NCBI GenBank assembly: GCA_025617745.1
Contig: CM046869.1
Location: forward strand, 5,852,244-5,916,243
Direction: 5' to 3'
From: Heliocidaris erythrogramma
Taxonomy: Eukaryota; Echinodermata; Echinoidea; Camarodonta; Echinometridae
Length of the DNA: 64,000 bases
Shown here: positions 3,631-63,117 of the stretch, piece by piece
Position numbering within the stretch: position 1 is the stretch's first letter
Layout of the letters: the number at the start of each line of letters is the position of its first letter
The notes under the pieces: model-generated
Databases searched by the model: none
The model's input: only the letters and a program-made list of their open reading frames with translations
What the model was told of the DNA's origin: nothing
Made by a program: the position numbers and the translations under genes

Positions 3631-3686
3631 TTTGAAGGTAGAGGTTTGCATGGTGGTACTGATAACGTGGAGAAGGTTTACGGTTC
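3631..3686 (+). repeat. dispersed repeat fragment shared with 60991-61046
   Basis: A 56-bp stretch starting TTTGAAGGTAGAGGTTTGCA and continuing through GATAACGTGGAGAAGG is repeated at 60991-61046 with about three mismatches. The related text GAAGG-GTTTGCATGGTG also occurs at the left end of the 8.6-kb insertion near 42588. I read these as ends of one retroelement family, possibly Penelope-like; the family name is inference. Confidence 0.7.
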
Positions 3687-5992: not shown

Positions 5993-8310
5993 ATATAGAT
6001 ATAGATATAGATATAGATAATTTATTGTCATGTCATATCAAAAATATAACATAAAATTTGTTTTCAGACTTTTCTTTCACATACAAAATATACAAAAGCA
6101 AGACATAGAGTATACATATTCATTTGCACAGAAGTAATAAATACATGTAAATACTATACACAAGGTTAACGCCTCCGATATCACAGCCCTAACCCTAACC
6201 CTATCGTTCTGGCCTTTTACCCCAAATTAATCATGTTCATAAACTTATATATAGTCCACAAAAAAGTTCAGTTTCAGCCTCCTTACTTAACCCTTGACCC
6301 CTGACTTTATGAAAATGTTAACATACCTCGGCGTCACTACATGGCGGGGCATAAAAGAAAAAAAAACATGATAAACATGAAATAAATAGTAAATAAATAG
6401 TATAGGAACTGGCATTAAATTAAAACTTAAAAACTATTTCTTAACACAACAAATTTAGATCACCTTCTAACCTGCTTATTATATGCCAACGATGCCCATA
6501 TCAAAAATGACTTCCTGTACCTCTCTGTTCTCAGTTTAGGTAGTATAATTCGTCCAGATCTGGCATTCAGAGCCATTTCTTCATGCAGAGGATGAGAAAC
6601 ATCCTTCAAAATACTATGCAGCTTATCCAACACAGCAGAGTGTACTATATCTTCGAGCTGAGGCAGGGGAGTTCCTATGATTTTGCTTGCTTGTTTCACC
6701 ACCCTTGTGACTTGGAGTTTACTCCTTTCTGTGAGTCCATTAAACCATACAATTGAACAAAAAGATATCACAGACTGTATGACACTCTGATAAAACAAAA
6801 CTAGAGTCTGACATTGTACATTAAAACGCTTAAGCTTCCGAAGGAAGAACAGGCGCTGATTTCCTTTAGTCTGAACTTTCCTCGCATTTTTTTCCCATTT
6901 CAGCTTATTATCTACAATCACTCCCAAGTACTTATATTCCTCCACTTGAGCAATGGCATCATCCTTGATAACTAGGGGTTGATGATCCACTGTAGAAACC
7001 CTACGAAAATCAATAATTAACTCTTGAGTTTTCTTAGTATTTAAAACTAATGAAGTTTTCTCACTCCAAGTCACAAAGTTGTTGACCCAGTCCCTATATT
7101 CTCTTTCATCATTGTTTCTAATCAAGCCAATAATACAAGAGTCATCAGCATATTTGATAATATGGCAGGATGAGGCAGATGTAGATCTAAAGTCACTAGT
7201 AAGCAATGTAAAAAGCACAGGAGACAACACACATCCCTGTGGTGCTCCTACACTGATGTTCCTAACCTGAGAGAACAGTTCACCAATTCGCACCTGTTGT
7301 TTCCTCTCAGTCATGAAGCTGCATACCCAAAGGGACAAATGAGGATTCACTTTCATGACCCTGTGCATCTTTTCAACCAAGTACTGAGGCACAATCGTAT
7401 TAAAGGCAGATGAAAAATCTACAAAGAGTACTCGGGCATAGGTTTTGGCCTGTTCTATGTGTTTAAAAACAGTATGTGTTAAATATATAATAGCATCCTC
7501 AACACTTCTTTTGTTTTTGTAGGCAAACTGAAGTGGGTCCTGAAATTCTTTTGTCTGACTAATCAGCATCTCCTTAACAATTTTCTCAAAACACTTCATA
7601 ATAATGGGAGTGAGGGAAACAGGTCTAAAATCATTTAAAACAGTTGGTTTTGTTATCTTTGGAATGGGAATAATTGTGGCAGATTTCCAAATGCTAGGAA
7701 CATAAGATATATCCAACGACCATTGAAAGAGTGTATGATACACTCCAGAAAGCTGTTGGGCACACACCTTCATAAGCTTCCCTGAAACATTATCAGGACC
7801 TGTGGATTTATGAACTTTAATCGATTCCAAAATGCTCCCGACTTTCTCTGGTTTTACAAATAACCTACAACTGTCAGAGAGAGCCTTTTGTATGTCACTC
7901 CGACATTGGGAAAAGCCCGCTTCATGATCTTGACTGTCAAACCTACTATAAAAGTCATTCAGGGCTTCTACAAAGTCAGATACATTATCTCCAAGAATAA
8001 CATTTTTCTTATTACTCATATCAAACCCTGTTATTAACTTTAAACCTTTCCATGCTTCTCTTGGGCTCCCTTCCTGAAATTTCTTATCTACTTTTTCTCC
8101 ATAACTGTGTTTCTTACTCTGCACATGTTTCTTAAAGGCTTTATCTATTTTCTTTACTAATTCAATGTCATTGTTCTGAAAAGCAGTCACTTTTTGTTTT
8201 ATGTAATCTCTGCAACTTTTATCCACCCAGGGTTTGTTATTTGCATACCGTTTAAACGTTTTCTCGTGAACAATCAAGTCCTCGCAGAATCTGATGTACC
8301 CTGTAACTAA
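5993..8310 (-). mobile_element. 5'-truncated CR1/L2/Rex-like LINE with hexamer tail
   Basis: A non-LTR retrotransposon on the minus strand. It contains an intact-looking reverse transcriptase frame (6460-8313), then about 450 bp of 3' UTR, and ends with ATGACAATAAATT followed by roughly five ATCTAT-type units at 5993-6026 instead of poly(A). Tandem-repeat tails are typical of CR1/L2-like LINEs. The endonuclease domain that should precede the reverse transcriptase is missing, so the copy is 5' truncated near 8300. A run of three CCCTAA units at about 6186-6203 lies inside the 3' UTR. Confidence 0.85.
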
Positions 8311-8313
8311 CAT
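6460..8313 (-). CDS. LINE reverse transcriptase (617-codon open frame)
   Basis: RNA-directed DNA polymerase of a non-LTR element, acting in target-primed reverse transcription. The frame begins in the linker that normally follows the endonuclease (NNKPWV at residues 25-30). RT motifs in order: STGPDNVSGK at 170-179, FRPVSLTP at 229-236, FVDFSSAFNT at 297-306 (catalytic Asp), GAPQGCVLSP at 356-365, and the YADD box at 388-391 (two catalytic Asp). No internal stop, so the copy is young or the frame has been kept by chance. The ATG at 8313 is probably not the native start, since the element is 5' truncated. Assignment to CR1/L2/Rex1 is by motif style only. Confidence 0.85.
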   Translation of the reverse strand: MLVTGYIRFCEDLIVHEKTFKRYANNKPWVDKSCRDYIKQKVTAFQNNDIELVKKIDKAFKKHVQSKKHSYGEKVDKKFQEGSPREAWKGLKLITGFDMSNKKNVILGDNVSDFVEALNDFYSRFDSQDHEAGFSQCRSDIQKALSDSCRLFVKPEKVGSILESIKVHKSTGPDNVSGKLMKVCAQQLSGVYHTLFQWSLDISYVPSIWKSATIIPIPKITKPTVLNDFRPVSLTPIIMKCFEKIVKEMLISQTKEFQDPLQFAYKNKRSVEDAIIYLTHTVFKHIEQAKTYARVLFVDFSSAFNTIVPQYLVEKMHRVMKVNPHLSLWVCSFMTERKQQVRIGELFSQVRNISVGAPQGCVLSPVLFTLLTSDFRSTSASSCHIIKYADDSCIIGLIRNNDEREYRDWVNNFVTWSEKTSLVLNTKKTQELIIDFRRVSTVDHQPLVIKDDAIAQVEEYKYLGVIVDNKLKWEKNARKVQTKGNQRLFFLRKLKRFNVQCQTLVLFYQSVIQSVISFCSIVWFNGLTERSKLQVTRVVKQASKIIGTPLPQLEDIVHSAVLDKLHSILKDVSHPLHEEMALNARSGRIILPKLRTERYRKSFLIWASLAYNKQVRR

Positions 8314-9357
8314 ATATGATAAACAAGGAAAAACAAAGAGAACTCAAAATACTTCATGGAATCCATACAAGTGATATCAAGGCAAATCTTTTTATATTGC
8401 ACAGCTGAAAACTTACAAGCAGTGCACTGACTGCAGTATTAAATGACCATTAATGATAAAGCTGTACAAAAAGTAAATTGTGTTTATGGCGACATACTGA
8501 AACCATTTTTAAAGCTGCATTAGACTGAGTTGCTTCCCTACTAATAATAATCAGGTGTGCTGTCTGTCATTTGCAACTGTTGAAATAGACAGCTACAGCC
8601 CACCAGACTGACATGTTGGTCAAGTGGGCCTTCTGAAAACTTTTTTGAGGGTTCACTACATCAAACATTGTTGGGCTGTCGATTTTGTGGGTTGCCAGTC
8701 TACTACGATGTCCCAAAATGGACAATAAAACAAAATCAGTCCATGGGTGGTATTCTGATAATTATTATATATTTTATTTTAAGGAAGAGTTATTTTAATT
8801 GTCCCAACAAATCTAAATGACAAATCATTGGCTAATGTGCAAAAAAAAAAAAAAAAAAAACATCTGCAAAGACTAATGAAAAGGCATGACAATCAAAATC
8901 AATTCACTTCACAAGAAAAGCCTGAAAATAAGCTATGGACAAAATAATTTTTGAAGAAAACTACATGTATGCGAGGAATTTATATCGGGCATTTTCAGGC
9001 TTTAGTGTTTAAGAGACACTGAACAGTGCTGTGCATTAATTGCAAATATTTTTGTCAATAATTTACAGAATGGAGCCTCGTCACGTATTAAAATTGCACA
9101 CACATTCCACATACATGTATGTGATAGAGAACCCATAATAATAGGGTAAATCATGAGCCACTGCAAAAAGCTGACAGTGTCATTAAAGTTGCCTTAAACT
9201 GGTAGAATATGATCAGCGCCATCTTATAGTCATTCCTAAGATTATAATTACAGATTAGTTGCATTATATTAACGACTGGCTTTAAATATAAGCACATTTT
9301 GTATTTCAAATTATTACTGTTGACTGGCAAATGTAGAAAATGGCCCAGAAGTACAGT
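8314..9357. other. AT-rich spacer, no gene seen
   Basis: About 1 kb with no recognised coding signal. It contains a poly(A) run at about 8840-8859. Confidence 0.5.
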
Positions 9358-41391: not shown

Positions 41392-42085
41392 GGTAGACGT
41401 AGTTAGTTACATGTGAGATTAATTGACTAATTGTGGGTGTAATACACGTGAGGTGACTTTATGAAATGAATCAAATGTGTCACAGATTTATTATGAAATA
41501 TTACAGCCATGTGAAGAGGAAATAAATAAAACATTCAAATATTATTTATTACGAAACATTGGGTAGCTAACTATTTTTTTTTAATTTTGATAAAATATTA
41601 CCCCCTTTCCCAAGTAGTCGTTCCCAAAGAAACGCTTTAAATCATGTATTACCACATGAGGGCGGCAAACTCGGCTCAAAATTCGGCTCAAAACTATATG
41701 TAGCAATTTTCATTAGAAAAAAAATAAATTGATGGTCATGACTAGATGGTATACGTTAGTCAGGTGGATTGGTGAAATAATTGTGCACTTTTTCATAAAA
41801 GCATGACATTTTGCATGTAAGTTGCGTTTTTCATGCCGAATAATTCTGGATATGGGGCCAGCTAAAATTTGGGCCCTGGCTCTCTCATGCTGCTATTTTC
41901 CTTCATAATTGAGTTAACCAAATCTAGTATTAATAGGCCTATATTCAGTATAATTATGAAGTAAGATTTCCGGGCATCTAAATTCGGAAAAGTGCTTTAG
42001 GTGCCCATTCTTTAAAACAAAGGGTCATTTCATATATCTAAATATAACTTCCCTGATTTGTTGAATGTAAGTAAATGTTTCTAAT
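41392..42085. other. ATF6 5' flank, no gene
   Basis: AT-rich upstream region presumed to hold the ATF6 promoter. No TATA box or known binding site could be defended. Confidence 0.4.
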
Positions 42086-42089
42086 TGTT

Positions 42090-42400
42090 ATCAGCTGGGT
42101 ATGTTGGTTTCCCATCAGGGTGGATAAGGAAGCTTCTAGACCTGAGATGATATAACATGTCGGTTTCCTGGAGGACAATAGAAGCTACCAATGAAGAGGG
42201 GCGTGGCATTAAGCATCTCCAATTTGATCCACTGGATTTCGCAGTCAGTATAAAGACGTGAACATTCACTAACAATCACCAAACTTTTGGTTGCAACAAA
42301 CACTCGAAGCGTCATGGAATCCCTATCTACAGAGCAAAATATTTTTAATGATTGGTTATGTACGGCCATCACACTCATTACAATTCGAATATCGGACTTT
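42090..42400 (-). pseudogene. LINE endonuclease fragment
   Basis: A minus-strand frame with GVFVATKSL-like start, then IQWIKLEMLNATPLFIGSFY and CPPGNR. This is the W-x-K-L-E … P-x-x-I-G-x-F-Y-x-P-P block of APE-type LINE endonucleases. The copy is cut off and carries stops just downstream. Confidence 0.7.
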
Positions 42401-42611
42401 GAAGCAAAAAATGATAAATCCGATTAGATGTATTGGCTCTTGACCGTCATATCGAGGAAGAGCATAATATATTGTCATATTGTAATAATAATAAAACTGC
42501 GAACAAAGCAATAACAACAAGGTCACAGAAAATCGCCGGGACAGTTATATACAAACTGCACACAACAATCTGAGCTTTATAGGATTTGAAGGTTTGCATG
42601 GTGAATTTGTA

Positions 42612-42793
42612 ATTCAGAAAAAAGGTTTGCGGTACAACCATGTGAGTTGGAATAACTCCACGTTCCGGTCAGAATGCTCTGGCCGTCGTCAGGAGAATGA
42701 GAAGAGCGAATAAATCAGCAGAATTTTATATAATGAAGTAGCAATTCACTTTATTAAAACGGAATTAGTAATGAAAGAAATAGTAACAGTAAC
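42612..42793 (-). repeat. left arm of inverted repeat, with hammerhead-like segment
   Basis: Near-identical inverted copy of 51008-51187. On the minus strand it contains CTGACGACGGCCAGAGCATT at about 42693 down to 42661, then CTGACCGGAACG. The pattern CUGANGA, a 7-of-8 bp stem, then G(G)AAC resembles a hammerhead ribozyme core with an A-to-G change. Confidence 0.7.
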
Positions 42794-42794
42794 A

Positions 42795-43433
42795 TCAAAG
42801 TACCTACATTGAAAGGATAAATAACATCAAGGTGCCTGCATTGAAAGGATAAGTAACATCAAACGAGTCCTGCGTTGAAAAGAAACATTGAAAACAAGTG
42901 AACAATAGGACTAAGAAACCAATAACCTTCTGGATAAGCTGGAATTGCTTTCTTCAACAGAATTTTGTGTTCTTTACTCTTTCCGATTTTGTCTTCACCC
43001 CCTTTTTCCCACAGGTTATACAGGTTTACCATTGTTCATCACCTCTCCCCCCCCCCCCCCCCCCCCCCACAGGCAACTCCTGATGTCTTCTTTTTTATCA
43101 ATCGTTTTTTCCACATGTATTTTAACCAAATTGCTTCCCTCAACAGGATTTCATGTTTCTCAACTTGTTCATTACCTTTGTTTTGTTGTTTTATATTCAT
43201 CATTAGGATGTCATTATTTCACCCCTTTTTTCCACATGTAGGAGTTAGAGCTTCGCCAGCAACAGTTAAGACTTTCTCTAGCAACAAAGCTAAGGGTGGC
43301 CGAAAGTCTATAATGAGTACCTAGAAGGGAAATCTCAGCCAGGAACTGGTCAGGTTCAGCAGGATCAGTCACCTGCTAAGCTTAGTCTTGTTGACGAAAC
43401 TGTAGCCTACCCTATAGCATCTCCTATACTCCC
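42795..43433 (+). other. BEL element leader with acceptor-like pyrimidine repeats
   Basis: Starts with two or three copies of CATTGAAAGGATAARTAACA, followed by a series of pyrimidine tracts ending in CAG or TAG near 42960, 43016, 43072, 43147 and 43239. A 22-base poly(C) lies at about 43048-43069. From about 43243 the frame ELRQQQLRLSLATKLRVAES, a typical BEL gag coiled-coil segment, is followed by stop codons, so the gag N-terminus is decayed. Confidence 0.55.
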
Positions 43434-46127
43434 ATGAGCGTTGTGTCAGAAGAGCCTGAGGTTGTTAAGTTTCTGCAGTCACCTGCTAAGCCAAATCCAG
43501 CAGAAGAAACTCTTACGTATCCTGCGAGATCTACAGAGACCTCCACTAAGGCAACACCATCAGAGACTGAGGTTGTCAAGTTTCTACACCAGGGTCAACA
43601 ACAGCAGCAGCGTATGTTGGAGTCAATGCTTCTGCCCCGTGTAGAACTTATGACATACGATGGTAATCCCCTCACGTTCTGGGAGTTCTGGCAAGCGTTC
43701 AAGAACAGCGTTGAAGGGACATCGATAGACGATGCAGCTAAGCTCCACCAGTTATATCACCATTCGTTCAAGATTACCAATGCTTGGATGAGGAAGGTAA
43801 CACAGGGTGAAAAGGTCAAAGACAAGCTTGGCCTCCGCAGAATGGCCGATGAACTGCAAGCTTGTTTTTATACACTTCAAGCTATGGGCCATAGAGAAGA
43901 ATTATCATCGCAGCACTCCATCCTGAAAGTGGTAGAGAGGTTGCCAGGTCATCTTCGAGGAAGGTGGCTGAAGGTTGTAAGTGTAATACGGAAACAGTAT
44001 AGGCAACCAAACTTTGATGATCTTATGGCTTTTGTTCAAGATGCTGCAGACGAGGAAAATGATCCTGTGTATGGTCAACTTATGGACAGGACACAGATAT
44101 CTCAGTCACCGAAGAAGATGGAGAAGGTGTATGCTGCAACCAGTGCACCTCCAAAGTTCACAAAGGTCTGTCTTTTGTGTGACCAGCAGCATACTCTGTT
44201 CAGATGTGACCAGTTCAGAGAGATGAAACCGGAGGAACGATTTAAGTTTGCTCAGACTAAGAAGCTGTGTTTTAACTGTTTAATTCCGGGTCACATGTCA
44301 GGAAAGTGCACAGTGAACAGGACATGTGCGGTACCTGGTTGCAGGAGAAAGCACACCAAATTTCTCCACATTGTAGACCCATCCACTTCAACCGAAGCAC
44401 AGTCTGTGAGCAGCAATATAACAGGGGCTGGAGGACGGGTAGCTTTACCTATTGTACCCCTTCGAGTGAGAGCTGCAGGTGGCGACACTTGCATCGAGAC
44501 TTGTGCTTTACTTGATAGCGGATCTACGAGCACATTCTGCTCCGAGGAACTAGCTCATAGACTCAGAGTAAGTGGTGTACAGCAGAACTTGTCACTCTCA
44601 ACCTTGGAAAGAGCCAACAGTCCAACTAGTTGTATGGTAGTGTCTCTACAAGTGGAAGGTACATCTACATCCTGTAACCAGACCATCAAGCTTCCAAGGG
44701 TCTTCACAAAGAGGCAGATAAACATCCATCCGTCAAATATGGCCAAGAGGGAAGATGTCAGATGCTTTTCTCATTTAGATGGGATAACTTTTCCCAAGGT
44801 GAATTCGAAGAACATTGGTTTGTTGATTGGCCAGGATGTACCTGAAGCTCTACTACCATTAGAAGTCCGATCTGGCAGGCCTGGAGAAGTGTATGCCACT
44901 AGAACCTCTCTTGGGTGGACACTCAATGGACCATTACACAACACAGAGGAAGGAAGAGCCCACTCTAGTTTCATCTCCAGAGATGATAGACTTGAAGAAC
45001 AAGTAAAGAGGTTCTGGTCCATGGAAGGTACAGAGTATTTGCAGGGAAGAGAGAAAGAAATTTCCATGAATGACAAGAAAGTGATCAGGACATGGGAAGA
45101 CAACATCAGCCTACAAGATGGTCACTACTATCTACCTGTGCCTTTCAGAGAAGATCCACCTGACCTACCTAACAATTACTTCATGGCAGAGAAAAGGCTT
45201 CAGTCCCTGAAGAAGAGGTTATCTCGTGATACATCACTACATGACAAGTACTGTGAAGGCATAGCAGAGCTTCTCATTGAAGGATATGCAGAGGAGGTAC
45301 CTGCTTCACAAGTAAATTCAGAGGGGCCGGTGTGGTATCTACCACATCATCCAGTGATGAACCCCAACAAACCAGGGAAAACTAGAATAGTGTTTGACTG
45401 TGCTGCTACTGTTAAAGGGAAGTCTCTGAACACTGAAGTGATGCAAGGACCTGACTTGACCAATGCTCTGGTGGGGGTACTGTTGAGGTTTAGGCAGTAT
45501 CCGGTTGCAGTTATGGCAGATATCAAAGCCATGTTCCATCAGGTACGTGTGCCACAAGAAGATCGAGATCTCTTACGATTTCTCTTGTGGGAAGATGGCA
45601 ACATGGAAAGAGAGCCTAAAGTTTACAGGATGTGCGTCCACTTATTTGGAGGCACTTGGAGCCCCAGTGCCTGCAGCTTTGCTTTGAAACGAACTAGTGA
45701 TGACAACAAGGATAGTTACAGTACTGAAGCAGTAGAGGCAGTACAACATAGCTTCTATGTAGATGATTGCCTCATATCTACCGAGACTGAAGTAGAGGCA
45801 ATGAAGCTGGCTGCAGAGCTGAGATGTCTCGTTCAAAGTGGTGGATTCCAGCTCACGAAATGGGTTAGCAACAGTCCAAGTGTCATTGATTCGATTCCTA
45901 TGGAAGAGAGAGCCAAGGAAGTTAAGGGACTCGATTTTAGCCACGAAGTGATGCCAGTAGAGCGAGCATTAGGTGTGAGCTGGAACCTTGAGCTAGATAG
46001 TATTGGGTATAAGATAACACCCAAGGTCAAACCACTGACCAGACGAGGAATATTGAGCATTGTATCGTCAGTCTACGATCCCTATGTCCGTTCGTGTTAC
46101 AGGCCAAGCTCATACTTCAGGAACTGA
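43434..46127 (+). pseudogene. BEL/Pao gag-protease-RT, frame-broken at the 3' end
   Basis: 897 open codons. Gag part: LMTYDGNPLTFWEFWQAF at about 72-89 (DUF1759-type), then a zinc-knuckle region with CLLC…C near 245-257 and CFNCLIPGHMSGKC near 279-292. Aspartic protease: ALLDSGSTSTFC near 358-369 (DSG active site). Reverse transcriptase: MADIKAMFHQVRV near 693 and the FYVDD box near 773-777. The domain order gag-PR-RT-RH-IN and the YVDD box are those of BEL/Pao. The frame leaves the family consensus near nt 46085, where a small deletion after SSVYDP shifts to another frame and a stop. The first ATG is not native, since gag homology begins upstream. Confidence 0.9.
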
Positions 46128-48355
46128 CTTCGTTTAAGTTAGGTTGGGATGAGCCAGTACCAACCCTGCAGTGCCAGAGATGGCAAAGATGGCTAGCAGA
46201 CCTACCCCAGATGGAGAGCTTTCAGGTCAACCGATGTTATAAGCCTCATGAATTTGGGAGGGTAACTGAGTACCAGCTACATCACTTTTCAGATGCCTCT
46301 GAAAAGGCATATGGTACAGCATCTTATCTACGGATGATGAATGATGAAGGAAGAGTACACACAAGTTTAGTGTTTGCGAAATCTCGTGTCGCACCACTCA
46401 AGAAGATGACTCTCCCTAGACTGGAATTGATGGCAGCGACACTCTCCACCCATGTAGATCAGATGCTTAGAAGAGAATTAGATCTCCCAATTAGTAAATC
46501 TGTGTTCTGGACAGACAGTACTATCGTCCTTCAGTATGTGACGAATGATGACAAGAGATTTCATACCTTTGTCGCTAACAGGGTAGCAGCTATTCGCAGA
46601 AGTTCAGAACCACAACAGTGGCATCATGTTGAGTCCCATGCTAATCCTGCAGATGACATCTCCAGAGGACTAACAGCAGATGAACTACAGTCCAGTCAGA
46701 GATGGGTAGAGGGACCAGATTTTCTAGATCTTGGTGAAGAATATTGGCCTACTGGACCAGAGTTAGGTGGATCCAGCCTTGAAATGGATAAGGAAGTCAA
46801 ACGAGACGTCAAGCCAAGAGTGCATGCAACATCCAGTGCACATGGTGGTGATGTAATGGACAAGCTGATAGCTAGTCGATCCTCATGGTACAAGTTAAAG
46901 AGAACAGTGGCATGGCTTCTACGAGTCATTAGGTACCTGAGAGGAGAGAAGTCGATCATGAAACAATTTCTAACTGTCAAAGAGTTGGAGAATGCAGAAA
47001 TAAAGATTCTACAGCATGAACAAGAAAGATGCTTCCCTGCTGAGATGGAAGCATTGAGGCGCAAGAATGCGGAGAGGGGTGCACAGGCGAAGTACACAGG
47101 AGTGAGGAAAACCAGTCCTATCTACAAGTTAGATGCCAAGCTAGAAGGAGGACTGCTTCGAGTAGGTGGAAGAATTCACAGATCCTCACTTCCAGCAGAA
47201 GCTAAGCATCCTCTCATCCTCCCTAAGAACAGTCCAGTTTCACTCCTAGTTCTGAGACATATTCATGAAATGACAGGACATAGTGGGAGAAATCATATGC
47301 TCTCACTTCTTCACCAGAAGTACTGGGTGCTAGGTGCCGGTGCAGCAGTCAGGAGGATGACTACCAAGTGTGTTGTGTGCCGCAAGCAAAGAGCAAAGCT
47401 GATGAAGCAGAAGATGGCAGCTCTACCTGAGGACCGACTTCGACCAGATGAACCACCATTCACCAGAGTAGGGGTCGACTATTTTGGGCCTTTTGAAGTA
47501 AAGAGGGGTCGTAGTCTGGTGAAACGATACGGAGTGATGTTCAGCTGCTTGGCTATACGAGCTATACATTTGGAAGTGGCTCACTCCCTTGACACAGATT
47601 CCTGCATTGCTGCAATAAGGAGATTTGCAGCTCGTCGAGGCAATGTGAGGGAGATTCGGTCAGATAACGGCACTAATTTAGTAGGAGCGGAGAAGGAAAT
47701 AAAAAGAGAAATAGAAGCTTGGAACAAAGCTCAGCTGAATGACACCATGCTCCAGAAGAATATTCAATGGACATTCAATCCACCCGGTGCCTCTCACCAT
47801 GGTGGAGTATGGGAGCGGCAAATTAGAACTGTGAGAAAACTGTTATATTCCCTAGCCAGTCAACAGCTGCTATCTGATGAGAGTTTACAGACTCTCTTTT
47901 GCGAGATCAAGAACATTGTGAACAGCAGACCGATCACCAAGATTGCTAGTGGTGTTGATGACTTTGAAGCACTATCACCGAACCACCTGCTTCATCTACA
48001 CTCCAAGCCACAACTTCCTCCGACATTGACGAAGGAGGGTGACATGTATGCTAGGCGTCGATGGCGACAGGCCCAATACTTAGCTGATGTGTTTTGGAGA
48101 AGGTGGGTTAAACAGTACCTACCACAGCTACAAGGCAGGCAGAAGTGGGTTGACCCTGAGCGAAACCTGAAAGTGGGCGATCTAGTGCTTGTAGCCGATG
48201 TCAATCTTCCACGTAATTCGTGGCAGCTAGCGAAAGTCCTTCGTACTAGGCCGGACCGTGAGGGATTTGTTCGCAGTGTAGAAGTCCAGACGAAATCTAG
48301 CGTCCTTGTGAGACCCATCACCAAATTGTGTTTGATTTTAGAAGCAGGGGAATAG
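46094..48355 (+). pseudogene. BEL/Pao RNase H-integrase part of pol
   Basis: 753 open codons in the -1 frame relative to the previous ORF. RNase H: HHFSDASEKAYG near 63-75 and FWTDSTIVLQYV near 137-148. Integrase zinc finger: HIHEMTGHSG … CVVC near 388-432. Integrase core: VGVDYFGPFEV (Asp near 460), IRSDNGTNLVG (Asp near 520), GVWERQIR (Glu near 573). The C-terminal DUF5641-like region is RRWRQAQYLADVFWRRWV near 655-672. Catalytic residues are all present, so apart from the deletion at about 46085 the pol region is well preserved. It ends 16 bp before a G-rich stretch; about 2.6 kb of non-coding element DNA follows. Confidence 0.9.
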
Positions 48356-51007
48356 TTTAATTTGTGATTACATGTATTAGAGATGGAGGTGCGAGCCTAG
48401 CGCCGCCTCATTTTACTTTTCCTTGATGGAAAATTTAATGATAAAGTCAGGAAGGGAGTCTAGGTAGGCATATTCGGGACGCGTTTCCGCAAAGTCCAGT
48501 TGATAGTGATTAAACGTTTTCGTAAATAGCTTTATATGCATTTTCACGAGGTACGTGTAAGATGATAGCCCAGTTTAGCGTCTTCGCGGGATCTAGAAAA
48601 CAACTTGAGATTCTTCACGAAGTCTAGAGAACAGTCTGCATGTCACAATTAATTAATTTAAAGAAGCAAGATTATGATTGCTTCTTAAAAGTTTATATTT
48701 GTAAACAAAACCAAAGATTCATAGCACAGTATTAATATTCAGACAATGAGAACAGCCAAACTGAGAAACTGATAACTCTACTTGTGAGCAGAGACTTAGA
48801 TGTTTCAAGTGGAAACACAAACTGTGTATTTTTCATATTTATACACATATATATATTTATATATTGTCTGTTAAAACGAAAAAAAGCTGTTTTCATGTGT
48901 ATACATGTATGTGTAGGGTGAGCAGAAATATTAATTTGTGTTATCACTCTTGTGAAAACGAAATTTATTACACCTATAGTGTTAACTTTTACTGGAATAC
49001 CAATACCTGTTGGTTGAATATTTGATACATGTACAAACATAAAGTGTACTAATTATAGTTTCCAAAGGAAAGGGTAGAAATTCTTTCAGTGCAGTTTGGG
49101 ACTTTTAAGTACCCGGTGTACATTGATATTATCAGGTACAAAATTGATCATTTTGCCAAGTGGCAGGGACTTAATTTTTGGACTATACTTTGCAGTTGAA
49201 AGGAATATAGATTGCTTTATTTGTTCAGTGAAAGCTGTAATTGACCAATTAACAGTGAAAATTTGGTTATATGTAATGTTTTCACTTCTCAGCATAAGAG
49301 AAATGGATAGAATAGCAATGCTGTCTGTCTTTAAATAAGTTTTGATTACATGTTGTATGTGTGTATAGCTTGAAGGTGATATATGCAAAAAAAGCTGAGC
49401 AATACTTTTCCTTTGTATTATATTACGTATGTACATTTCATAATTCTTGATAACCAGGAGTTCATGTTAAAGCGAAAGAATCATGAAGATAGTTTTGTAC
49501 AGTACTTTAAATTTGTGCAAATTCATGAAGTATTCTGCATATAGATGCATGTGTTGATAAATTAGTGTATTCCAAACTGAATGTATTATTTCAGTTCAGC
49601 TCAGTTCAGCTTTATTAAATTTGAACAGAAGTTGTTTATATGATGGAATAGAATTCCATACAGAAGGAGCTTATGTCTGAAAGAGTAATTCATATTGTTT
49701 GGTAATAGATATTATATTTCATTCTATTTCTAGTATTATATCTATAAACTGAACAATTTAATGTCAACATGTTGCATAAAATTTTTGGGTAATAGCCCAA
49801 GCCTGTGTTTAAATAGTATTCCATGACATTAATTATTCAATTTATAAATATTCAGTATGAATAACTTCTGGGTTATTTCAAATTTTTATGAGCAAAGATT
49901 TCTAAGAACAATTTGCAGATTTAGCTGTTATTGAAGATGCCAGAACAAGCATGTATTTCTGTAACCTTTAGTTATGCATTTTGCTTGCTATGTCACAGTT
50001 TACAAGGAAAATGATTTAAAGGGAGAAGTAAGATACATGTATTTAAAGGAAAGCTTATTATACTGTACGTAATCCAAACTTAAAGGATTAATATTTGTAT
50101 ACAGTTTTATAGGTTCAGTAGAATGGAAAATATTTGTAAATGTTCATATGTAGGCTTCTCATTTAAGGGGCCGGGATTTAAGCTACAGGATTTACTGTGA
50201 TAACAGTCTGGTTCGTATTGTGACGTCAGAAGCGGGGACTGTAATGATTTAGATGTGTGAGGGCGTTTTTGGTTTGCCAGCCTAATTTCACGTTTTTGGT
50301 GATGGATGTTTCTAGGAGTTGTCGTTAGAAATCCAGTTAATTCAGCATAAGCCCAAAGTTGTAAGTAACATTTCTTGAATATTATTGTGGTTTAATCATT
50401 CAAAATGATGTTGTGTGACAGAATTTTATGATTATGATGTATTTGGTGAAATATAAGACACTTTTTGTTGGTGTGATAAATGAATGGGGTTTGGGTATAA
50501 GCTGTATATGTATACACAATACAGCATGTAGAAATTGGTCGTACAAAGTGAACGTAGGAAATAATGGTTGGCAAGATGCATCACTAAAATGATAAAAAGG
50601 TACAATTATGATGATGATTATGAAACATTCTAAAGATGTATTTTATGAGTTTGCATATGATAAATAAGTAATTTAGAAACAATTACATAGATAAAAGACA
50701 GTGCATGAATTTGCATAAAGGGCATTAATTACATAGGTAATTCAAATTAGATAGTATGCATTTTGCTGTTTTATTTTATATTTATAAAGTATAATGCATC
50801 AGGTCATAACATTTGAGATACAATGTATCATTATACAGTACTGAGATTCAGACTTCTTTTGATATGAATATGCAGTTATGTGCAAATATTCATATTGGCT
50901 TTATTCTTTTGTATTTTACAGATTGAACGGCTCAGAATAAAGACTAGAGTCTGTCTCGTAACTGGTGCTTTTCAAGTGTAATCTGTCAACTCGTAGTAAA
51001 CATTTCA
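48356..51007 (+). other. BEL element 3' region, possible LTR remnant
   Basis: About 2.6 kb, AT-rich, non-coding. At about 50219-50246 TGTGACGTCAGAAGCGGGGA contains a perfect CRE (TGACGTCA) and a purine-rich tract like a polypurine primer, followed by CTGTAATGATTT as a possible LTR start. A donor-like GTAAGT near 50361 and an acceptor TTTGTATTTTACAG near 50908-50921 bracket an intron-like stretch. AATAAA lies at about 50936. I could not find the matching 5' LTR. Confidence 0.4.
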
Positions 51008-51187
51008 GTTACTGTTACTATTTCTTTCTATACTAATTCCGTTTTAATAAGTGAATTGCTACTTCATATATAAAATTCTGCTGATTTATTCGCTCTTCTC
51101 ATTCTTATGACGACGGCCAGAGCATTCTGACCGGAACGTGGAGTTATTCCAACTCACATGGTTGTACCGCAAACCTTTTTTCTGAAT
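51008..51187 (+). repeat. right arm of inverted repeat
   Basis: Inverted partner of 42612-42793, differing by a few small indels and by TTATGACGA where the left arm has CCTGACGA. Its outer end abuts the 14-bp target duplication directly. Confidence 0.85.
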
Positions 51188-51450
51188 CTGAGCTTTGTAA
51201 AAGAAAAAGAAAAGGGGGGGGGGGGTCCTGATTATATTCTGAGATTGCAGACATGGATAAGAACATGGTGGCCAGAATTTTAAATGGGAGTCATCAAAAC
51301 CTTAAACCTACCCACCCCCTCCCCTGCGTGGAAGGATGGAAAACAACATGAAGATATAAGAACGAATGATCGTAACATATAGCTTAGTTTAGTTCCTAAG
51401 GTTTCAACAACTTACGTCGAAGAAAGCACAAACAACACAATGCAGTGGCC
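51185..51450. repeat. right flank of the insertion; duplicate of 57956-58300
   Basis: Shares GACATGGATAAGAACATGGT, then CCAGAATT..AAATGGGAGTCAT, GTGGAAGGATG, and ACTTACGTCGAAGAAAGCAC with the copy at about 58095-58290. The left half of the same repeat is at 42497-42580. Confidence 0.85.
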
Positions 51451-51599
51451 GCGGAGCATTTTTGAAAGGGGGGGGGGGGCTGATTGGATGTCATTCATTA
51501 ATGACAATTTTAACACTTTTTCCGAGGTTTTATAAAACGTGTCTACTCAGAAATGTGCGGGCTGCAGTCTCAGCCCCCCCCCCCCCCCCTCAATTCACT

Positions 51600-51860
51600 T
51601 ATATTGGAATACCTAAGGACAGTATCAAAACTTAAGAAGAAGAAACATACATTCTGCGAACCCTGCACATTCGGTTATTCACGTTACATTATTAAAAAAC
51701 ATAAAATCTGAGTAACAGTGGAATTGCCATTTTTCATCTCAGAAAATAACAGCACATATATTTCCATGAAGGGGTAAAATGAGAGCACATCATTATAATT
51801 TTTAAAACAGAACAATTCTCCCATAGAAGGGGTACTGATACTATCACATGAATACATTGA
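51600..51860. repeat. duplicate of cholinesterase intron segment 60065-60270
   Basis: Shares GACAGTATYAAAACTT, CATTCGGTTA, CATGAAGGGGTAAA and GTACTGATAC-type blocks in the same order with 60065-60270. In the other copy this block and the 57956-58300 block are separated by the last cholinesterase exon; here they are only about 150 bp apart. Confidence 0.75.
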
Positions 51861-52400
51861 GTCTACATTAAATGAAATTGGTATGTCAGATGTATGGACC
51901 GGTCATAAATTATTTAGCAATGTGGGGGACAGGGGGGACACGTCCCCCCCCCCCCCCGATTTTGTTTGAGGGGACATCATATCAAATGTCCCCCATGTTT
52001 TGTCAGAAAAGAAGAGGTACCACCGCGAACAATGACTTTTTATACCTTGCCAAAGAGATGCGAGTTAAATTCCCATTTTAAAAAAATCACCATGTCATTG
52101 TACTAAACTTTTCAATGCATTCTCACTCATTTAGACGGGGTTGAGCATTACAATATTGCCAAAGTGCATGCCTGCATGGTCATAGAGCTAGAGCGGGGGT
52201 TTTGCATCACTCATACCTCTATAGCTGTTCCCAGTGGGGGATTTAGGGAGGCAATCACGGCCCGTGCCCCCCCCCCCCCCTTGAAAGAAAAGTATGCATT
52301 GTGCCCCCACCCCCCTTTAGAACCGAAAACTTTTTTTGTTTGCTTGTCAGAGAATTATGGTGGGAGACTGGACCCCATAATCCCCCTGTGAATTAACACG
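51861..52400. other. spacer with several poly(G)/poly(C) runs
   Basis: Runs of 12-16 G or C near 51943 and 52267, and others just upstream near 51214, 51467 and 51573. No gene. Confidence 0.7.
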
Positions 52401-52419
52401 TACTTATAATGCAAAGGAT

Positions 52420-53045
52420 GTGTTGACATTACTTCATTTTAATTGCCGTAGCCTTAAACGTAATTTTGATAATTTTTCACAGTGTATTGGGAATCTTGGG
52501 CAATCCATATCATTCTTAGAGGTTTCTGAAACGTGGCTTCGACACAACGAGGAAGTATATTTTAACATACCTGATTTTTCCTTTATTGCCAATAACCGGG
52601 ATAGTAAAAGAGGGGGAGGAGTTGGCATGTATGTAAGTAAATGTTTGAAGTTTGTAAGGAGACTTGATCTAGATATTTTAATAATTACATTGAGTGTTTA
52701 TTTATTGAAGTGTACTGTGGATCAAAAAGTTTTGTTATTGGTGTCATTTACAGACCTCCGAGTCAACCATTGAAAGATTTTAATGATATTTTACAATTAC
52801 CTTTAAGCAAGATTTCTAACGAGAAAAAAGAGTGTATTGTCATGGATGATTTTAATGTTGATTTGATGCACATAGATTCTACCTCTCACACATACGACTT
52901 TTTCAATACCTTTGTTACCTTTTCGTATACTATAAACTATAAACCCACAAGGATAACCAGTCATTCCGCAACCATATTGGATAATATATTTTATAATCAT
53001 TCCGAAAAAGTCTTAAAATCTGGTGTAGTTACAACAGATGTTTAA
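52420..53045 (+). pseudogene. LINE endonuclease domain
   Basis: Frame 1: LTLLHFNCRSLKRNFDNF, SETWLRHNEE, RGGGVGMYVS (52420-52773). Frame 2: VIGVIYRPPSQPLKDFNDIL, CIVMDDFNVDLM, TRITSHSATILDNIF (52710-53045). These are the N-x-R-S, E-T-W, G-G-G-V, Y-R-P-P and D-D/G-F-N blocks of APE-type endonucleases. A frameshift lies near 52720 and a stop near 53043. Confidence 0.85.
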
Positions 53046-53847
53046 TAGTGACCATTTAACTCCCTTCATAGTAATTAAATGAAATTTATTTCCTAACGGC
53101 TTAAATGTACATTACACCAGAAGAGAATTTAATGATGAAAGCATGAAAGACCTTTGTATAAATTTACAGTTTATTGACTGGGAATTATTGAATTACATAG
53201 ATAGTGTTCATGAAAGATACGACAAATTTTTGGAAGTATATACCCAATTATACGATGAGAGCTTCCCAACTATTAATGTGAGAAGCAAAGGGAGTGTTAT
53301 AGATTAGCTTTGCCTTCATATGAAGTAAAAAAGATGTGTAAACGTAAATATATTTTGTATAAGAATTTTTTAAAGAATCCTACTTCTTATAGAGAAAGTG
53401 TTTATAAAAGATATAGAAATGTTGTTCATAATTTTATCCGTCAGAAGAAGCGTGAATTCTATGACCATAAATTTGATAATGTAAAATACAATGCTAAAGC
53501 AACATGGAAAATAATTTATAATATTTTAACAAAAAATAACAATATAACAGATGATTATAAAATTGAAAATAATGGAGAGGTAATTGAAAATAAGCACGAA
53601 ATTGTCAATATTTTTAATACGCTTTTTAGTACCATTGGGTCTCATATTCATGGAGCTAGTAGTAACCGCTCAGGAAAAGAAGATTTCAAGAAATACTTGA
53701 GGAACTCCGTTTGCCAGTCAATGAATTTTACACCAGTATCAAAGGCATTGATTTATGATATTGTTTCTAAATTGGATGTAGATAAAAGTGCAGGTCACGA
53801 TGACATTAGTGTTAAAACGGTTAAATATTCCATCAATGCAATAGTAA

Positions 53848-55545
53848 TACACTGTTGGTCATAATGGTAGCATAATTTTTTTTTTTACCTTTCGTACACA
53901 ATTGACAACAATGCGAGTCATTTTTTTGCAAAATAAAGCTTATATCTTCACCGATTTTTATTGATAAATCTGTTCTCAACATATGAAATAAAAAATATTA
54001 GACAAAAATTAATTCATACAAACTTTATACACTGGTTTAAACCACTTTTGACAAACACAATCATCCAGACCTTGGATTCCTAGATAAAATGTATCGTTTT
54101 TGGTAAATGTTTAACCATGATAAGTTTATCGTGAAAAATAAAATCTTAGGATCTTTTGATGATTGAAGGGAAGTGTTCCTCTTTTTAATCTTGTTGGGTC
54201 ACTTAGTACCTGGTATGGCCACCTCTGGCACGCACCAGTGCCTCCACACGCCGTGGCATACTGTCCACAAGGTTGTTGATGGTGTTCAAGGGCAGTGCAT
54301 CCCACTCTTCGGTCAGTGCCTGGGCTAACTCCTGCACATTTTGAGGATGATTGTTTCTCTCACTGATGGCACGGCCCAATGCATCCCAGGCGTGCTCAAT
54401 GGGGGTTCATGTCGGGGGAACTGGCAGGCCAAGGCATCTGCTGCACGTCCTCTGCGTCAAGGAATTCCCTCACCAGACGTGCCCTATGTGATCGAGCGTT
54501 GTCGTCTTGGAGCTGAAAGTTATTGCCATATACTCTTCTCGCGTATGGAAGACAATGTCGTTCCAGGATATCGCGGTACACGACGGCGTTGACGTTTCCT
54601 TCAGGTGCAGCCAATGGCGTTTTTCCGCCATAATGTATTCCGGCCCATACCATCACTGAGCCTCCACCTGCTTGATTGGTTTCCTGGACACAGTCATTAC
54701 GGAGGTTCTCGCCCCTCAATCGTCGAACCCTCTGCCTCCCATCGGTGCGGTCAAGGATGTACTGGCTTTCATCAGTGAAGATTACATGGCTCCAGTGACC
54801 AAACTGCCATTTCCTGTGCCTCCTAGCCCACAGGAGTCGAGCAACCCGGTGGCGAACAGTGAGACGTGGAACCTTGGTCATTCGCCGAGCTCTGTAGCCA
54901 TATTTGACAAGTCTCCTGTTTACGGTTTACCGTGAAACGTTCACTCCGAAGTGCCTCCTGCACAAGTGGCAAGACGACTCGCTGGCATTCTCCGGTTCCT
55001 ACGGCACATGTTCAGCAGTTGACGGTCATCCCGTGCGCATGTTCTTCGTGGTCGACCTGTAGATCTCTCTGGACTCAAAGTACCCGCCTCTCGATGTCTT
55101 CTGAGTATGCGGCACACACAACTCTGCGATAGTCCAAGATTATCTGCAATCTGGGCCTGTGTCCGTCCATTCCGTCGGAGTGCAAGTACCCTCTGACGAA
55201 TTGCAAGTGCCGTTGGGCGAGGCATAGTGTAAGGAATCAGTGTACCAAATTTGGTAGGAATTGATCAAGCTAACTCTGAAAACGGGTTGTTAACACACGC
55301 AGGCTTTCTGCACGAAACGGACAGCAAAACAACACAGAAAGGAGGCTCTGCCTTTCATACCACCAAACAATAAGATAGGCCACGTTATGGAATGTTCCAC
55401 TTGACCGACTTTTACCTCAACAATACAAAATCATTATGTAATCAATGAACCTGGTCAATATTATCTATTTAGGCTTTTAAATATGATTAAATCAACGGAT
55501 GACTATGAAAATACCAATTATGCTAACATTATGACCAACAGTGTA
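53848..55545. mobile_element. Tc1/mariner transposon inserted in the LINE
   Basis: 1694 bp (53850-55543) between TA dinucleotides at 53848-53849 and 55544-55545. The ends read inward CACTGTTGGTCATAATGGTA and CACTGTTGGTCATAATGTTA, and both continue GCATAAT. Length, TA target and transposase type fit Tc1/mariner. Flanking LINE reading frames continue on each side, which dates the insertion after the LINE. Confidence 0.95.
54396..55225 (-). pseudogene. Tc1-type transposase, frameshifted
   Basis: DDE transposase that would cut and paste the element by its terminal repeats. N-terminal part (55225-54941): MPRPTALAIRQRVLALRRNG then TQAQIADNLGLSQSCVCRIL, a paired-like helix-turn-helix, and GRPRR. 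C-terminal part (54881-54396): HVIFTDESQYILDR (first catalytic Asp), GGGSVMVWAGI, LQDDNARSHRARLV (second Asp), SSPDMNPH. A frameshift lies near 54940, and an extra C in a C-run near 54397-54401 shifts the frame just before the catalytic Glu region, so the copy is dead. Confidence 0.92.
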
Positions 55546-55988
55546 TTATTAATTTGTCCCTTGAAAGGGGTGTTTTTCCAAACTCATTAAAAATTGCAAA
55601 AGAAATTCCTGTTTTTAAAGGTGGTAATAAAGCATTAGTGACGAATTATAGGCCAATATCAATATTATCAGTATTCACTAAAATATTTGAAAAAATTGTA
55701 TATGATAAACTAATATCTTTTATATCTAAATATAACATATTATACGGTAAGCAATTTGGTTTTAGACAGGGATACAGTATACTGTTCATGCTTTGATTGA
55801 TTTTACAGAAAAAATTGCTAAAGCATTTGAAGATAAAAACATAACAGTAGGGATATTTTTAGATTTTTCAAAGGCGTTCGATTGTATTAATCATGATATC
55901 TTAGTAGATAAGTTATCTTCGTATGGAATCAGAGGAACAGTATTAAAATGGATAATTGGTTATTGAAGCAACCGAAAACAGTATGTTT

Positions 55989-56194
55989 CACTCTAAAAAC
56001 TCAAATGTTAAATCTACATTTAAAAGGTTGGAGGAGTGACAACATTTTCAAAATGGTAAATGAACACTTTTAACATGCTGCATCCAACCTTTAAACTATT
56101 AGATCCAGCATGTTAAAAGTGTTAATTTACCATTTTCAAAATGTCACTCCTCCAACCTTTTACATGTAGATTTAACATTTGAGTTTTTAGAGTG
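55989..56194. mobile_element. 206-bp palindromic MITE in the LINE RT
   Basis: Arms of about 90 bp: CACTCTAAAAACTCAAATGT at 55989 and its inverted copy ending at 56194, matching almost throughout. The flanking LINE codons rejoin in frame if the insert and one TT are removed, so the target duplication appears to be TT (2 bp). No coding capacity. Confidence 0.9.
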
Positions 56195-57475
56195 TTGTAT
56201 TAATAAAATTTATTCACCGTCTGAGAATATTACAGTAGGAGTACCTCAAGGGTGCAATTAAGGGCCTCTGCTTTTTTATTGCATATCAACGACCTTCAGT
56301 ATGTCAGTGGTGTTTTATCTACCACATTATTCGCCGATGATACAAGTCTATTTTTATCTGGGAAGGATCCCATCCAATTAAATGATAATTTAAATAATAA
56401 AATGTATAAAATAAATCAATGGTTTCTCGCTAATAGGCTTCAAATAAACGTCAATAAAACTTCTTTAATGATTTTTAAATCCAAAAATAAGAAAGTCGAA
56501 TACAACACAATAAAATTGTACATTAATGATACTGAAATTAAAAAGGTGCCGTTTACGAAATTTTTAGGTGTAATTATTGATGAAAATCTGAGTTGGAAAG
56601 AACATGTAAATCACATCACAAATAATATTTCTAAGTTTATTGGAATTCTGAACAGACTGAAAAATGATTTACCTTTGCGCATTCTTGTCAAATTATATAA
56701 TACTATGATATTACCACACCTACGTTATTGCAATATTATATGGGGTAACTGTGCAATTACTTAATGCAATAACTTTTTCGGTTACAAATCGGGTACTACG
56801 AGTTAAAACTAATTCGTCATGCTTGGCTCATAAAAACAGATGATTCCTAAAGCTGAAGATTCTGAAGATTTATGATTTATACACTTTTCAAATTGCATCA
56901 TTTATATTTTCTTATCATAGAAATATTTTGCCTGATATATTCAATAATTATTTTATTTATAATAGTAATATAAGCAAATATTCAACAAGAAACGCCAATA
57001 ACTTATACATCCCCTTCTACCGTTACAGTTTCTCAAGAACAGTTGTAAGTTATAATGGACCGACTGTGTGGAACAATATGACATCAGTATTTAAACAATG
57101 TTCTTCGCTGCAATCTTTTAAAAGAAAATACAAAACTTACCTTCTGAACTATCAATCCACTTAAATACCAAACTTGCCTGCTATTTTGTGTAATCCTATG
57201 TTATTTGTTTGTTATTTTTTCGTTCTTGTATTGTTACTTATGTTTTATGCCAGTGTTTATGTCAATACGGGGGTAGCCTTGACAGGTCAATGGCCTTTGC
57301 TACCCCCTCACATCCACATCTGGACGTTATATTAATTTCTCTCGTATCATTTATTTTTGATATTATATTCTTGCATTGTTGTTAATTCCCTTTAATATGT
57401 TGTTTATTTCTGATTTTATGCATGTGTTGTTATAAACTTTTTAAAGAGATGTGAAATAAAATGAATTGAATTGAA

Positions 57476-57889
57476 TTGTTAAAGAATAGTTAAAAATATC
57501 TGCTCGGTCGCTTTGCTCCCTCGCTACACTAATAACAGCAAAATAACGTGGGAATGACACTTCCGGTAGGCATGGAGCCATCAATGGTATAAAGATAAGA
57601 TAGAAGGAAAAACGAATAAAAAACGAATAATTAAATATCATAATTGATAGGATTGAAGTAAATTGAATATATCATAAAGAAAGTAAATGTGAGAAAATTA
57701 CAATGTGAGAAAATTAGCAGAAACCATGGAAACAAATGCGCATAGCAGATGCTCTTCTGTCTTGCTGATGTAACATGGATGTTATCAGGTCTGGAAGCGG
57801 ATCTATTGACAGCGATTAAGCCGGACTAAGCCCACTTTGGTAGTAGGTAAATGTGAAAACGGTATTACTTAAATCTGAGAGCAGAAAAT
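57476..57889. other. spacer, no gene
   Basis: Contains CTGCTCGGTCGCTTTGCTCC near 57502, the inverse of a word at about 32771-32790. Nothing else was recognised. Confidence 0.45.
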
Positions 57890-58300
57890 GAGAACAAAGC
57901 AAAAACAGCAAGGTCAGAGAAAATCACTAGGACAGTTGGAGATAAACTGAACAACAATCTGAGCTTTATAAAAGAAACAAATATAATAAACAGGGGCTTT
58001 GCTAGATCAATCCGTCCAAACTGATAAAGGTTTGCCAACAATTTTTAGAATACGCAAAATGAAAAAAAAAGGAGTCCTTACATTTTGACATTGCGGACAT
58101 GGATAAGAACATGGTGGCCAGAATTGTAAATGGGAGTCATGGAAACCTTAACCCCCTCCCCGGCGTGGAAGGATGAAAAACAACATGAAGATTAGAACAA
58201 ATGATCGTGATAGCTAACTTACCAAGGTTTCAATAACTTCCGTCGAAGAAATAAGCACAAACAACAACTTACGTCGAAGAAAGCACAAACAACAAAATGA
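57890..58300. repeat. empty-site copy of the sequence that flanks the 8.6-kb insertion
   Basis: Left part matches 42497-42580 (AACAAAGCAAAAACAGCAAG.., GAGAAAATC, GGACAGTT, ACAACAATCTGAGCTTTAT). Right part matches 51185-51450. The target word AATCTGAGCTTTAT occurs once, at 57956-57969. Confidence 0.85.
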
Positions 58301-62000: not shown

Positions 62001-63117
62001 TGTATTTATGACTGAAAGCAAAATAAGATCAAACAGGTGCCCTATGTTGCCTTGAATGGTCGTGTCATTCATCACTTACAAGCTTAATTTATGCATGCAA
62101 TTGTGCCCGTTCTTTTGCGCTTCATTGTAGGCTTTATTAGTGCAGATAGAGTTTTTCCAGTAGCACATTAAAAGTAATATAAGGTGACACAAGTTGTCTT
62201 ATCCGTGTCATCGAATTCATATTTTAAAAAAATAATTATTATAAGAAAAGGTGAACAGGTTGCGTGAGTAATTTCAGCTTCGGTCAAGATGCATTTCATA
62301 GCTAAAGATAATGTTCTGCGTTGTTCACTGAAAGAATAATCACTATGTCCGTTCAAACCTCGCCTTCCCATATGGTACCAAGTGAAAAGATAATGTTACG
62401 TACATGTACATCATTTCATTCGGTCTAGGAGGATGTGGGGGCACTTTTGTGAGGTTATTCATAATAGATACTGAAACAACGTAACTCATACTCGTTTTTA
62501 TCTTACCCTGATTTCACAAAGTTCGTCCAGTAACGCATGAATTCAATAGACATTAACTTCTCTTCATCTGTCTGTCCAACCACGCCATTAATGGTTGGGT
62601 TCAACCCCCACGCAAAGACGTACTGTAGATCTTCTGCATGGGAAGCTCCTGTCCATTCTGGAACACCTGCGTAAACCGACCATGTCGGGTCATGGGTCAT
62701 CTCGTACCTGTACACTTCTGCTCCTCCCGCTTCCAGAGCGCGTGCGTAGTATTCAGTAGGACACGCGAAAGTTTGATCGGTCGTCAGTCGTATCAGGCTA
62801 TCCAACTGAGTGGCCGAGGCGTCGTCAGCAAGACTCCAATCAATGTAGTGCTGTTCCACTGCAGCTATCTCAACATCTGACGTGGCGTAGTAAACGAGTC
62901 TTGGTAGATAAGATCTGAATAGGGAGATGTTCACGATGGGAGGTTCAAACAAGGAGCTTGGAACATCAATAAACGCGTAATTGATAGCAGACTCGTCCTC
63001 GTTGCTTCCAAGCAAGGTAGGTAGGACCTTGAACTGCCGTCGTTTGACCATTTCGACCGGATCTTCAGGCAGAAAGTGTCCATCGACAACAGGAGCAGAG
63101 AGAGCGCCGTTCCCTTC
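58900..63117 (-). CDS. cholinesterase (acetylcholinesterase-like), last three exons
   Basis: Serine esterase of the acetylcholinesterase family, a secreted or membrane-anchored enzyme that hydrolyses acetylcholine. Exons: 63117-62507, 60946-60777, 59030-58900. Junctions are GT-AG and phases agree, giving about 303 residues of the C-terminal half. Seen: VVDGHFLPEDPVE; the catalytic Glu in SNEDESAINY; the catalytic His in TGASHAEDLQYVF; FMRYWTNFVKSG-NPNEP; the Cys pair of the C-terminal loop (CPTEYYARAL and AASCSFW); and a separate last exon coding a T peptide. The exons with the oxyanion hole and catalytic Ser (GESAG) lie beyond 64000. A plain carboxylesterase or neuroligin is less likely because of the triad residues and the T peptide. 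Last-exon 3' UTR: AATAAA on the minus strand at 58554-58559. Confidence 0.93.
59031..60776. other. cholinesterase last intron
   Basis: Holds the copy (60065-60270) of the 51.6-kb segment and poly(C) runs near 59327-59342 and 60378-60394. No exon of an alternative (H- or R-type) C-terminus was recognised. Confidence 0.55.
60777..60946 (-). CDS. cholinesterase exon: NPNEP to conserved Cys
   Basis: 56 full codons: NPNEPMTSDVYPEWPRYT, LSLNMTNGRAMRA, SCSFWLNYMSG. DPNEP/NPNEP and C-x-F-W are family blocks; Cys42 of the exon is the partner of the disulfide Cys in the previous exon. Sequon NMT. Acceptor TTTAG, donor CAG-GTAATT, phase 1 out. Confidence 0.92.
60991..61340 (-). repeat. retroelement end, Penelope-like, with hammerhead-like text
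   Basis: Begins with the block shared with 3631-3686. On the minus strand, at 61266-61231, CTTGATGACAGACAGTCAAC is followed by CTGTTCGAAACGCC: a UGAUGA box, a short possible stem (ACAG/CUGU), then CGAAAC, as in hammerhead cores. Located in a cholinesterase intron. Confidence 0.5.
61341..62506. other. cholinesterase intron, no feature
   Basis: No repeat or exon was recognised in this part of the intron. Confidence 0.45.
62507..63117 (-). CDS. cholinesterase exon with catalytic Glu and His
   Basis: 203 codons from an acceptor CTTGTTAG to a donor GG-GTAAGA. Exon residue 42 (Glu in NEDES) aligns with the triad Glu, and residue 160 (His in ASHAEDL) with the triad His. Cys119 (FACPTEYYA) aligns with the first Cys of the third conserved disulfide. 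Human acetylcholinesterase has the same order: PVVDGDFL, VVKDEGSYF, VVCPVAQL, PHGYEIEF, RYWANFARTG. Phase 2 out, completing a Gly codon before NPNEP. Confidence 0.93.

Follow-up and report, generated by a model that had tools for sequence, protein, structure and literature searches.

A BEL/Pao retrotransposon between the inverted ends of a Penelope-like element in Heliocidaris erythrogramma, probably a nest of two ordinary transposons

A stretch of 64,000 nucleotides from the sea urchin Heliocidaris erythrogramma (C17:5852244-5916243, called the window below) contains a BEL/Pao gag-pol region enclosed by inverted arms and, outside these, by a long target site duplication. A first-pass annotation had left two origins open for this unit: a Penelope-like element (PLE) later invaded by a BEL element that lost its 5' long terminal repeat (LTR), or a composite unit mobilized whole through target-primed reverse transcription. 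Comparison with sibling copies of both elements indicates that the locus is very probably a 5'-truncated PLE insertion later invaded by a BEL/Pao element that lost its left end, in other words ordinary nested transposons. The features are listed below with their predicted assignments, the arms being given as pseudo-LTRs (pLTRs) of the PLE and UTR standing for untranslated region.

42567 to 42580, no strand: left target site duplication, AATCTGAGCTTTAT, exact for its first 12 nt
42582 to 42944, minus strand (PLE sense is minus): PLE unit 1, with the tail (~42582-42611) and a pLTR containing a 32-bp internal tandem repeat
42945 to 43240, plus strand: 3'-UTR repeat unit of the inverted, 5'-truncated partner PLE unit, stopping at the deletion junction
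43240 to 43241, no strand: putative PLE/BEL deletion junction, the two sides sharing no more than 1 nt (by eye); identical in a second locus, L009
43241 to 48355, plus strand: BEL/Pao leader remnant and gag-pol, broken into two frames (43395-46127 and 46013-48355)
48356 to 50176, plus strand: BEL 3' non-coding region
50177 to 51007, plus strand: BEL 3' LTR, complete, 831 bp, with TT for TG at its start and ACATTTCA at its end; AATAAA at 50936
51008 to 51012, plus strand: GTTAC within the pLTR, right-hand member of the 5-bp duplication expected for BEL, the left member having presumably been lost
51008 to 51184, plus strand (PLE sense is plus): tailless outer part of the pLTR that belongs to the inverted partner PLE unit
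51185 to 51198, no strand: right target site duplication, AATCTGAGCTTTGT
57956 to 57969, no strand: uninterrupted empty (paralogous) site, AATCTGAGCTTTAT, with related flanks on both sides

The arms pair in two inverted blocks, 42612-42732 with 51067-51187 (121 nt, 98% complementary) and 42751-42793 with 51008-51050 (43 nt, 95%), and their identity is 96.7% across 182 bp (BLAST, L010). The outer duplication, AATCTGAGCTTT, is exact at 42567-42578 and 51185-51196. The inverted arms, the target duplication and the empty site described in the first-pass annotation are thereby confirmed, at coordinates one or two bases away from those it gave; the exact part of the duplication is 12 nt, and 15 nt are reached with one mismatch. 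The left PLE part also extends beyond the limit of 42793 given there, to 43240, and bears a tail that is absent from the right arm.

What are these arms? A search taken over the 1.06-Gb genome, with 40 of 1106 first-look candidates scored, gave at least 42 arm matches among those listed. To judge from sequence, the arms are the pLTRs of a multicopy PLE encoding a reverse transcriptase (RT) and a GIY-YIG domain. Other copies of this element align to the window at 42578-42944 and 42943-43240; among the copies compared, only L009, which has the same BEL junction, matches past 43240. GIY-YIG is recognized in arm-linked open reading frames (ORFs), both 5'-truncated, in L009 (E 3.8e-6) and L018 (6.6e-6). 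Locus L067 combines RVT_1 (5.3e-12) and GIY-YIG (4.5e-5) in one ORF, with pLTRs matching at 91%, and its RT-GIY-YIG frame lies between inverted arms of 1127 bp that are 99.5% identical (335-1460 and 3422-4548). In L068, where the pLTR match is 97%, RVT_1 scores 5.1e-12 and GIY-YIG 0.0021, below its cut-off. The window copy has lost the PLE ORF: the ORF pieces and 3' UTR of unit 1 (~1.6 kb) are absent from it and retained in L009, where thumb and endonuclease pieces are found (ORF pieces at 7032-7924). We found no Rfam hammerhead match in the pLTR with E allowed up to 5 or 10; three weak Rfam matches were returned, all to unrelated families below gathering scores, and the fold of the pLTR is unremarkable (z 0.06). 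A CTGACGA...GAA stretch was noticed by eye on the PLE sense strand; its stem I could not be closed and we make no hammerhead claim for it.

Inverted arm pairs occur in nine of the 18 loci L011-L028, a single arm being seen in the other nine. We mapped 11 pairs: the window (L009 being counted with it), L011, L012, L013, L018, L021, L024, L025, L026, L027 and L067. The ten pairs besides the window likewise have inverted pLTRs and, as scored from BLAST ends, a tail of ~34 nt (~31-34, partial in L012) stands on exactly one outer end in all 11, with at most 8 nt of it at the opposite end. The tail may mark insertion polarity independently of element orientation. It is carried by the longer unit in four pairs, by the shorter in five, and by one of two near-equal units in the remaining two. 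The one-tail-per-pair pattern, seen in these 11 pairs, is a constraint on models of PLE insertion and may interest PLE specialists.

Exact flank duplications of 12-14 nt accompany ten of the 11 pairs, the window included, and 110 mismatched combinations of PLE flanks, taken as controls, reach at most 7 nt. These lengths exceed the 4-6 bp typical of LTR integrases. We therefore read the long duplication of the window as the PLE's own. When 24 PLE loci were searched with the BEL pieces, one matched, the duplicate L009, and the other 23 were without BEL. Within this sample the arms thus flank BEL sequence, besides the window, at L009 only, a result that the first-pass annotation had proposed to look for in further copies of the 180-bp arm and that favors its first option.

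BEL elements make 4-6-bp target duplications. The interior gag-pol belongs to a BEL/Pao family of the ordinary LTR-bearing kind, of which the window copy is a damaged member. Its domains are Peptidase_A17 (4.4e-40), DUF5641 (4e-29), integrase H2C2 (1.7e-9) and RVT_1 (4.7e-10), with aspartyl-protease matches below cut-off. The gag piece has eight full-length genomic matches, the window included, and two weak ones that fall together at a single additional place; a 906-base query from the BEL 3' end has 38 matches, many of them partial. Sibling copies (for example on C6 and C11) have direct LTRs of the form TGTAAGC...ACATTTCA, and of the seven other copies that bear gag, five have LTR sequence upstream of it. 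The expected target duplication holds in this family as 5 bp, exact in all seven scorable siblings (TTAAC, TTAAG, GGAGA, TATGA, GCACC, TGATG and ATATC). Self-comparison of 42795-51007, also proposed at the outset, found no direct LTR pair there, and the window copy keeps the 3' LTR only. Among 27 loci around BEL sequence, several of them overlapping and with the window's own gag locus (L029) excluded, arm sequence is present in two, L033 and L034, which are the window locus and its duplicate.

How the two elements meet is informative on the right side. The 3' LTR of the window is intact up to the terminal CA, its last base being 51007, and pLTR sequence begins at 51008 (GTTACTGTTAC); in intact pLTRs the same stretch continues inward, unbroken across this point. 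Because the LTR end abuts the pLTR exactly, we read the junction as the right-hand boundary of an integrase-mediated insertion at GTTAC. We considered whether a BEL mRNA had instead been captured by PLE reverse transcription. The window LTR runs 60-odd bases past AATAAA, a stretch that should be largely absent from a captured mRNA, and this candidate was rejected because the LTR is complete to CA and the junction is without poly(A). On the left, the LTR end of sibling BEL elements is separated from the point equivalent to 43241 by 231 bp (L031) to 243 bp (L030). We infer that one deletion removed the 5' LTR, the start of the leader (~230-240 bp) and ~440 bp of the PLE, this last length being an estimate from unit 1 of L009 (8311 to 8754).

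L009 (C17:5592229-5602162) lies on the window's own contig at a distance of ~300 kb, in inverted orientation, with the same arms and both junctions. The window flanks at 41707-42580 and at 51198-52666 are ~95-98% identical to C17:5591729-5602662, and the stretch around the empty site, 57870-58190, is itself duplicated at C17:5585390-5585708 (98% identity). Since both flanks and the empty paralogue were copied with it, L009 is judged to be a segmental duplicate and no second transposition. This second arm-BEL-arm locus was a candidate for an independent composite transposition, which was rejected once the co-duplication had been established. The duplication (C17:5585390-5602662 against window 41707-58190) would, if continuous, extend over at least 17 kb, the segment 5585709-5591728 being outside the comparison; alternatively, the duplicate could be a misplaced haplotype. 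The 43240/43241 junction is common to both copies, and the deletion is therefore older than the segmental duplication. L009 is without the equivalent of window 43260-45415, most of gag, and the window is without ~1.6 kb of PLE.

These data can be arranged in a simple succession. A 5'-truncated PLE would have entered AATCTGAGCTTT in the manner usual for such elements, through biochemical steps that we can only suppose, leaving two head-to-head inverted units with the pLTRs outermost, one tail and a 12-15-nt target duplication. A BEL/Pao element would then have integrated by its own integrase at GTTAC, within the pLTR belonging to the shorter of the two inverted units, the left side of this event being conjectural. 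A deletion of ~1.1 kb of BEL (5' LTR and ~230-240 bp of leader) together with the ~440 bp of PLE would have joined the PLE 3' UTR to the BEL leader. The block and the empty paralogue would then have been copied, inverted, to a place ~300 kb distant on the contig, and the copies would since have diverged by deletion, the window losing the PLE ORF pieces and L009 most of gag. The PLE structure, the outer duplication, the empty site, the sibling copies and the abutment of the 3' LTR on the pLTR are the observed parts of this account.

Several observations weigh against this succession. Only the right GTTAC remains in the window; the left BEL duplication and the 5' LTR are gone, so that the 5-bp duplication is one-sided. 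Three of the ten BEL copies examined are unscorable for it, an end being missing or altered. In two of the seven other gag-bearing copies (C4:40.4M and C6:18.9M) no 5' LTR was matched within the 3-4 kb fetched, and the absence of a 5' LTR is therefore not peculiar to the window. On the PLE side, L021 has no duplication (its 7 nt equal the control maximum) and the duplicated word of L011 is of low complexity. The flanks of the empty site show ~82-85% identity in aligned blocks broken by indels, and identity between the window and L009 varies by segment, from 94 to 99%. Finally, the order of PLE then BEL is an argument from parsimony, as identical outer ends would result from a single move of a donor PLE that already bore BEL.

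This last point brings in the second option of the first-pass annotation, in which a BEL-bearing PLE donor, or PLE protein acting in trans, gave rise to a composite copied as one into AATCTGAGCTTT by target-primed reverse transcription. We find no support for it and consider it very improbable. The 12-15-nt duplication does enclose the whole unit and a precedent has been described in Adineta vaga, where PLE pLTRs enclose a non-ribosomal peptide synthetase (NRPS) gene, accompanied by an 8-bp duplication and by an empty site (PMC3846280); to call such a composite new, as had been done, was accordingly too strong, given this reported foreign gene enclosed by pLTRs. However, no unlinked second composite was found, the only other arm-BEL-arm locus found being L009, which was copied along with its flanks and the empty paralogue, and BEL is absent from PLE siblings whose ends and duplications are the same. 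The position of the LTR end exactly at the junction does not fit a capture of unrelated DNA, although it would fit a composite formed in a donor. The version in which BEL entered a donor PLE first, and the PLE machinery then copied it to this site as cargo between pLTRs, seems to us just as doubtful.

The findings named beforehand as telling against a composite were in large part obtained, namely arms without BEL and BEL copies with direct LTRs; BEL's own duplication within the arms is visible on one side only. Could the arms instead be the terminal inverted repeats of a DNA transposon resembling a miniature inverted-repeat transposable element (MITE), invaded by BEL? The short arm-only copies L011, L013 and L025 do resemble foldback elements. 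However, the arms of longer copies flank RT/GIY-YIG ORFs, often 5'-truncated, for which reason this identity was rejected; the variable inner ends of partner arms, the single tail per pair and the 12-14-nt duplications also fit a PLE. The ORFs found between or beside arms are RT/GIY-YIG and include no transposase, with no transposase search made across all copies. A DNA transposon is thus extremely unlikely. We give hardly any credence, either, to an assembly artefact joining unrelated repeats: the junctions are known from the assembly alone and an inverted copy of ~98% identity lies on the same contig, but the 43240/43241 and 51007/51008 junctions both recur in L009, and an insertion fits both the target duplication and the empty site. 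The invasion of a PLE by BEL, the first of the two options, is the one supported by BEL siblings with direct LTRs and 5-bp duplications and by the exact abutment of the window 3' LTR on the pLTR.

Other features were noted in the window. A near-perfect hairpin of 206 bp at 55989-56194 (inverted pairs of 53 nt and 46 nt) is probably a foldback or MITE-like element. Broken frames resembling a long interspersed nuclear element (LINE) occupy 52381-53864; of the three frames searched, one gave PF14529 at 1.6e-5, below cut-off. On the minus strand, a 627-aa frame at 6460-8343 resembles a LINE-type reverse transcriptase and a 204-aa frame at 62503-63117 resembles a carboxylesterase/cholinesterase exon, both by eye.

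The locus may serve as a worked example of how sibling comparison can reduce a puzzling arm-pol-arm unit, long duplication included, to two elements already known. A limited literature search turned up no paper title naming a BEL-in-PLE nest. Taken by itself, the interior is like BEL/Pao in its Peptidase_A17, DUF5641, integrase H2C2 and RT domains and in having siblings with direct LTRs and 5-bp duplications. Unlike intact BEL/Pao elements, the window copy is without a 5' LTR and has a broken frame; structurally, nothing in it is new with respect to BEL/Pao. The Poseidon element of Anolis (PAc), from the Penelope/Poseidon clade, shares with the window PLE an RT-GIY-YIG organization with pLTRs; PAc lies in tandem repeats and has a hammerhead ribozyme motif, whereas the window pLTR has no hammerhead match (PMC11167929).

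The Penelope elements of Adineta vaga provide a closer comparison, as far as the accessible text of their description goes (PMC3846280). Elements such as Pen2a_Av have pLTRs and an adjacent inverted pLTR, with an optional 31-bp tail on one; target duplications are 8-10 bp, head-to-head inverted units are the most frequent arrangement, and a pogo element is inserted at the end of one Penelope 3' pLTR. The window PLE fits this description. Like Adineta Penelope, its family has an ORF with RT and GIY-YIG, an inverted pLTR that completes the insert, a target duplication, a head-to-head arrangement and another transposon inserted into the element. It differs in the length of the pLTR plus tail (~365 bp, against pLTRs of ~200 bp in Adineta), in duplications of 12-14 nt, and in internal repeats of the 3' UTR, with one copy interrupted by BEL.

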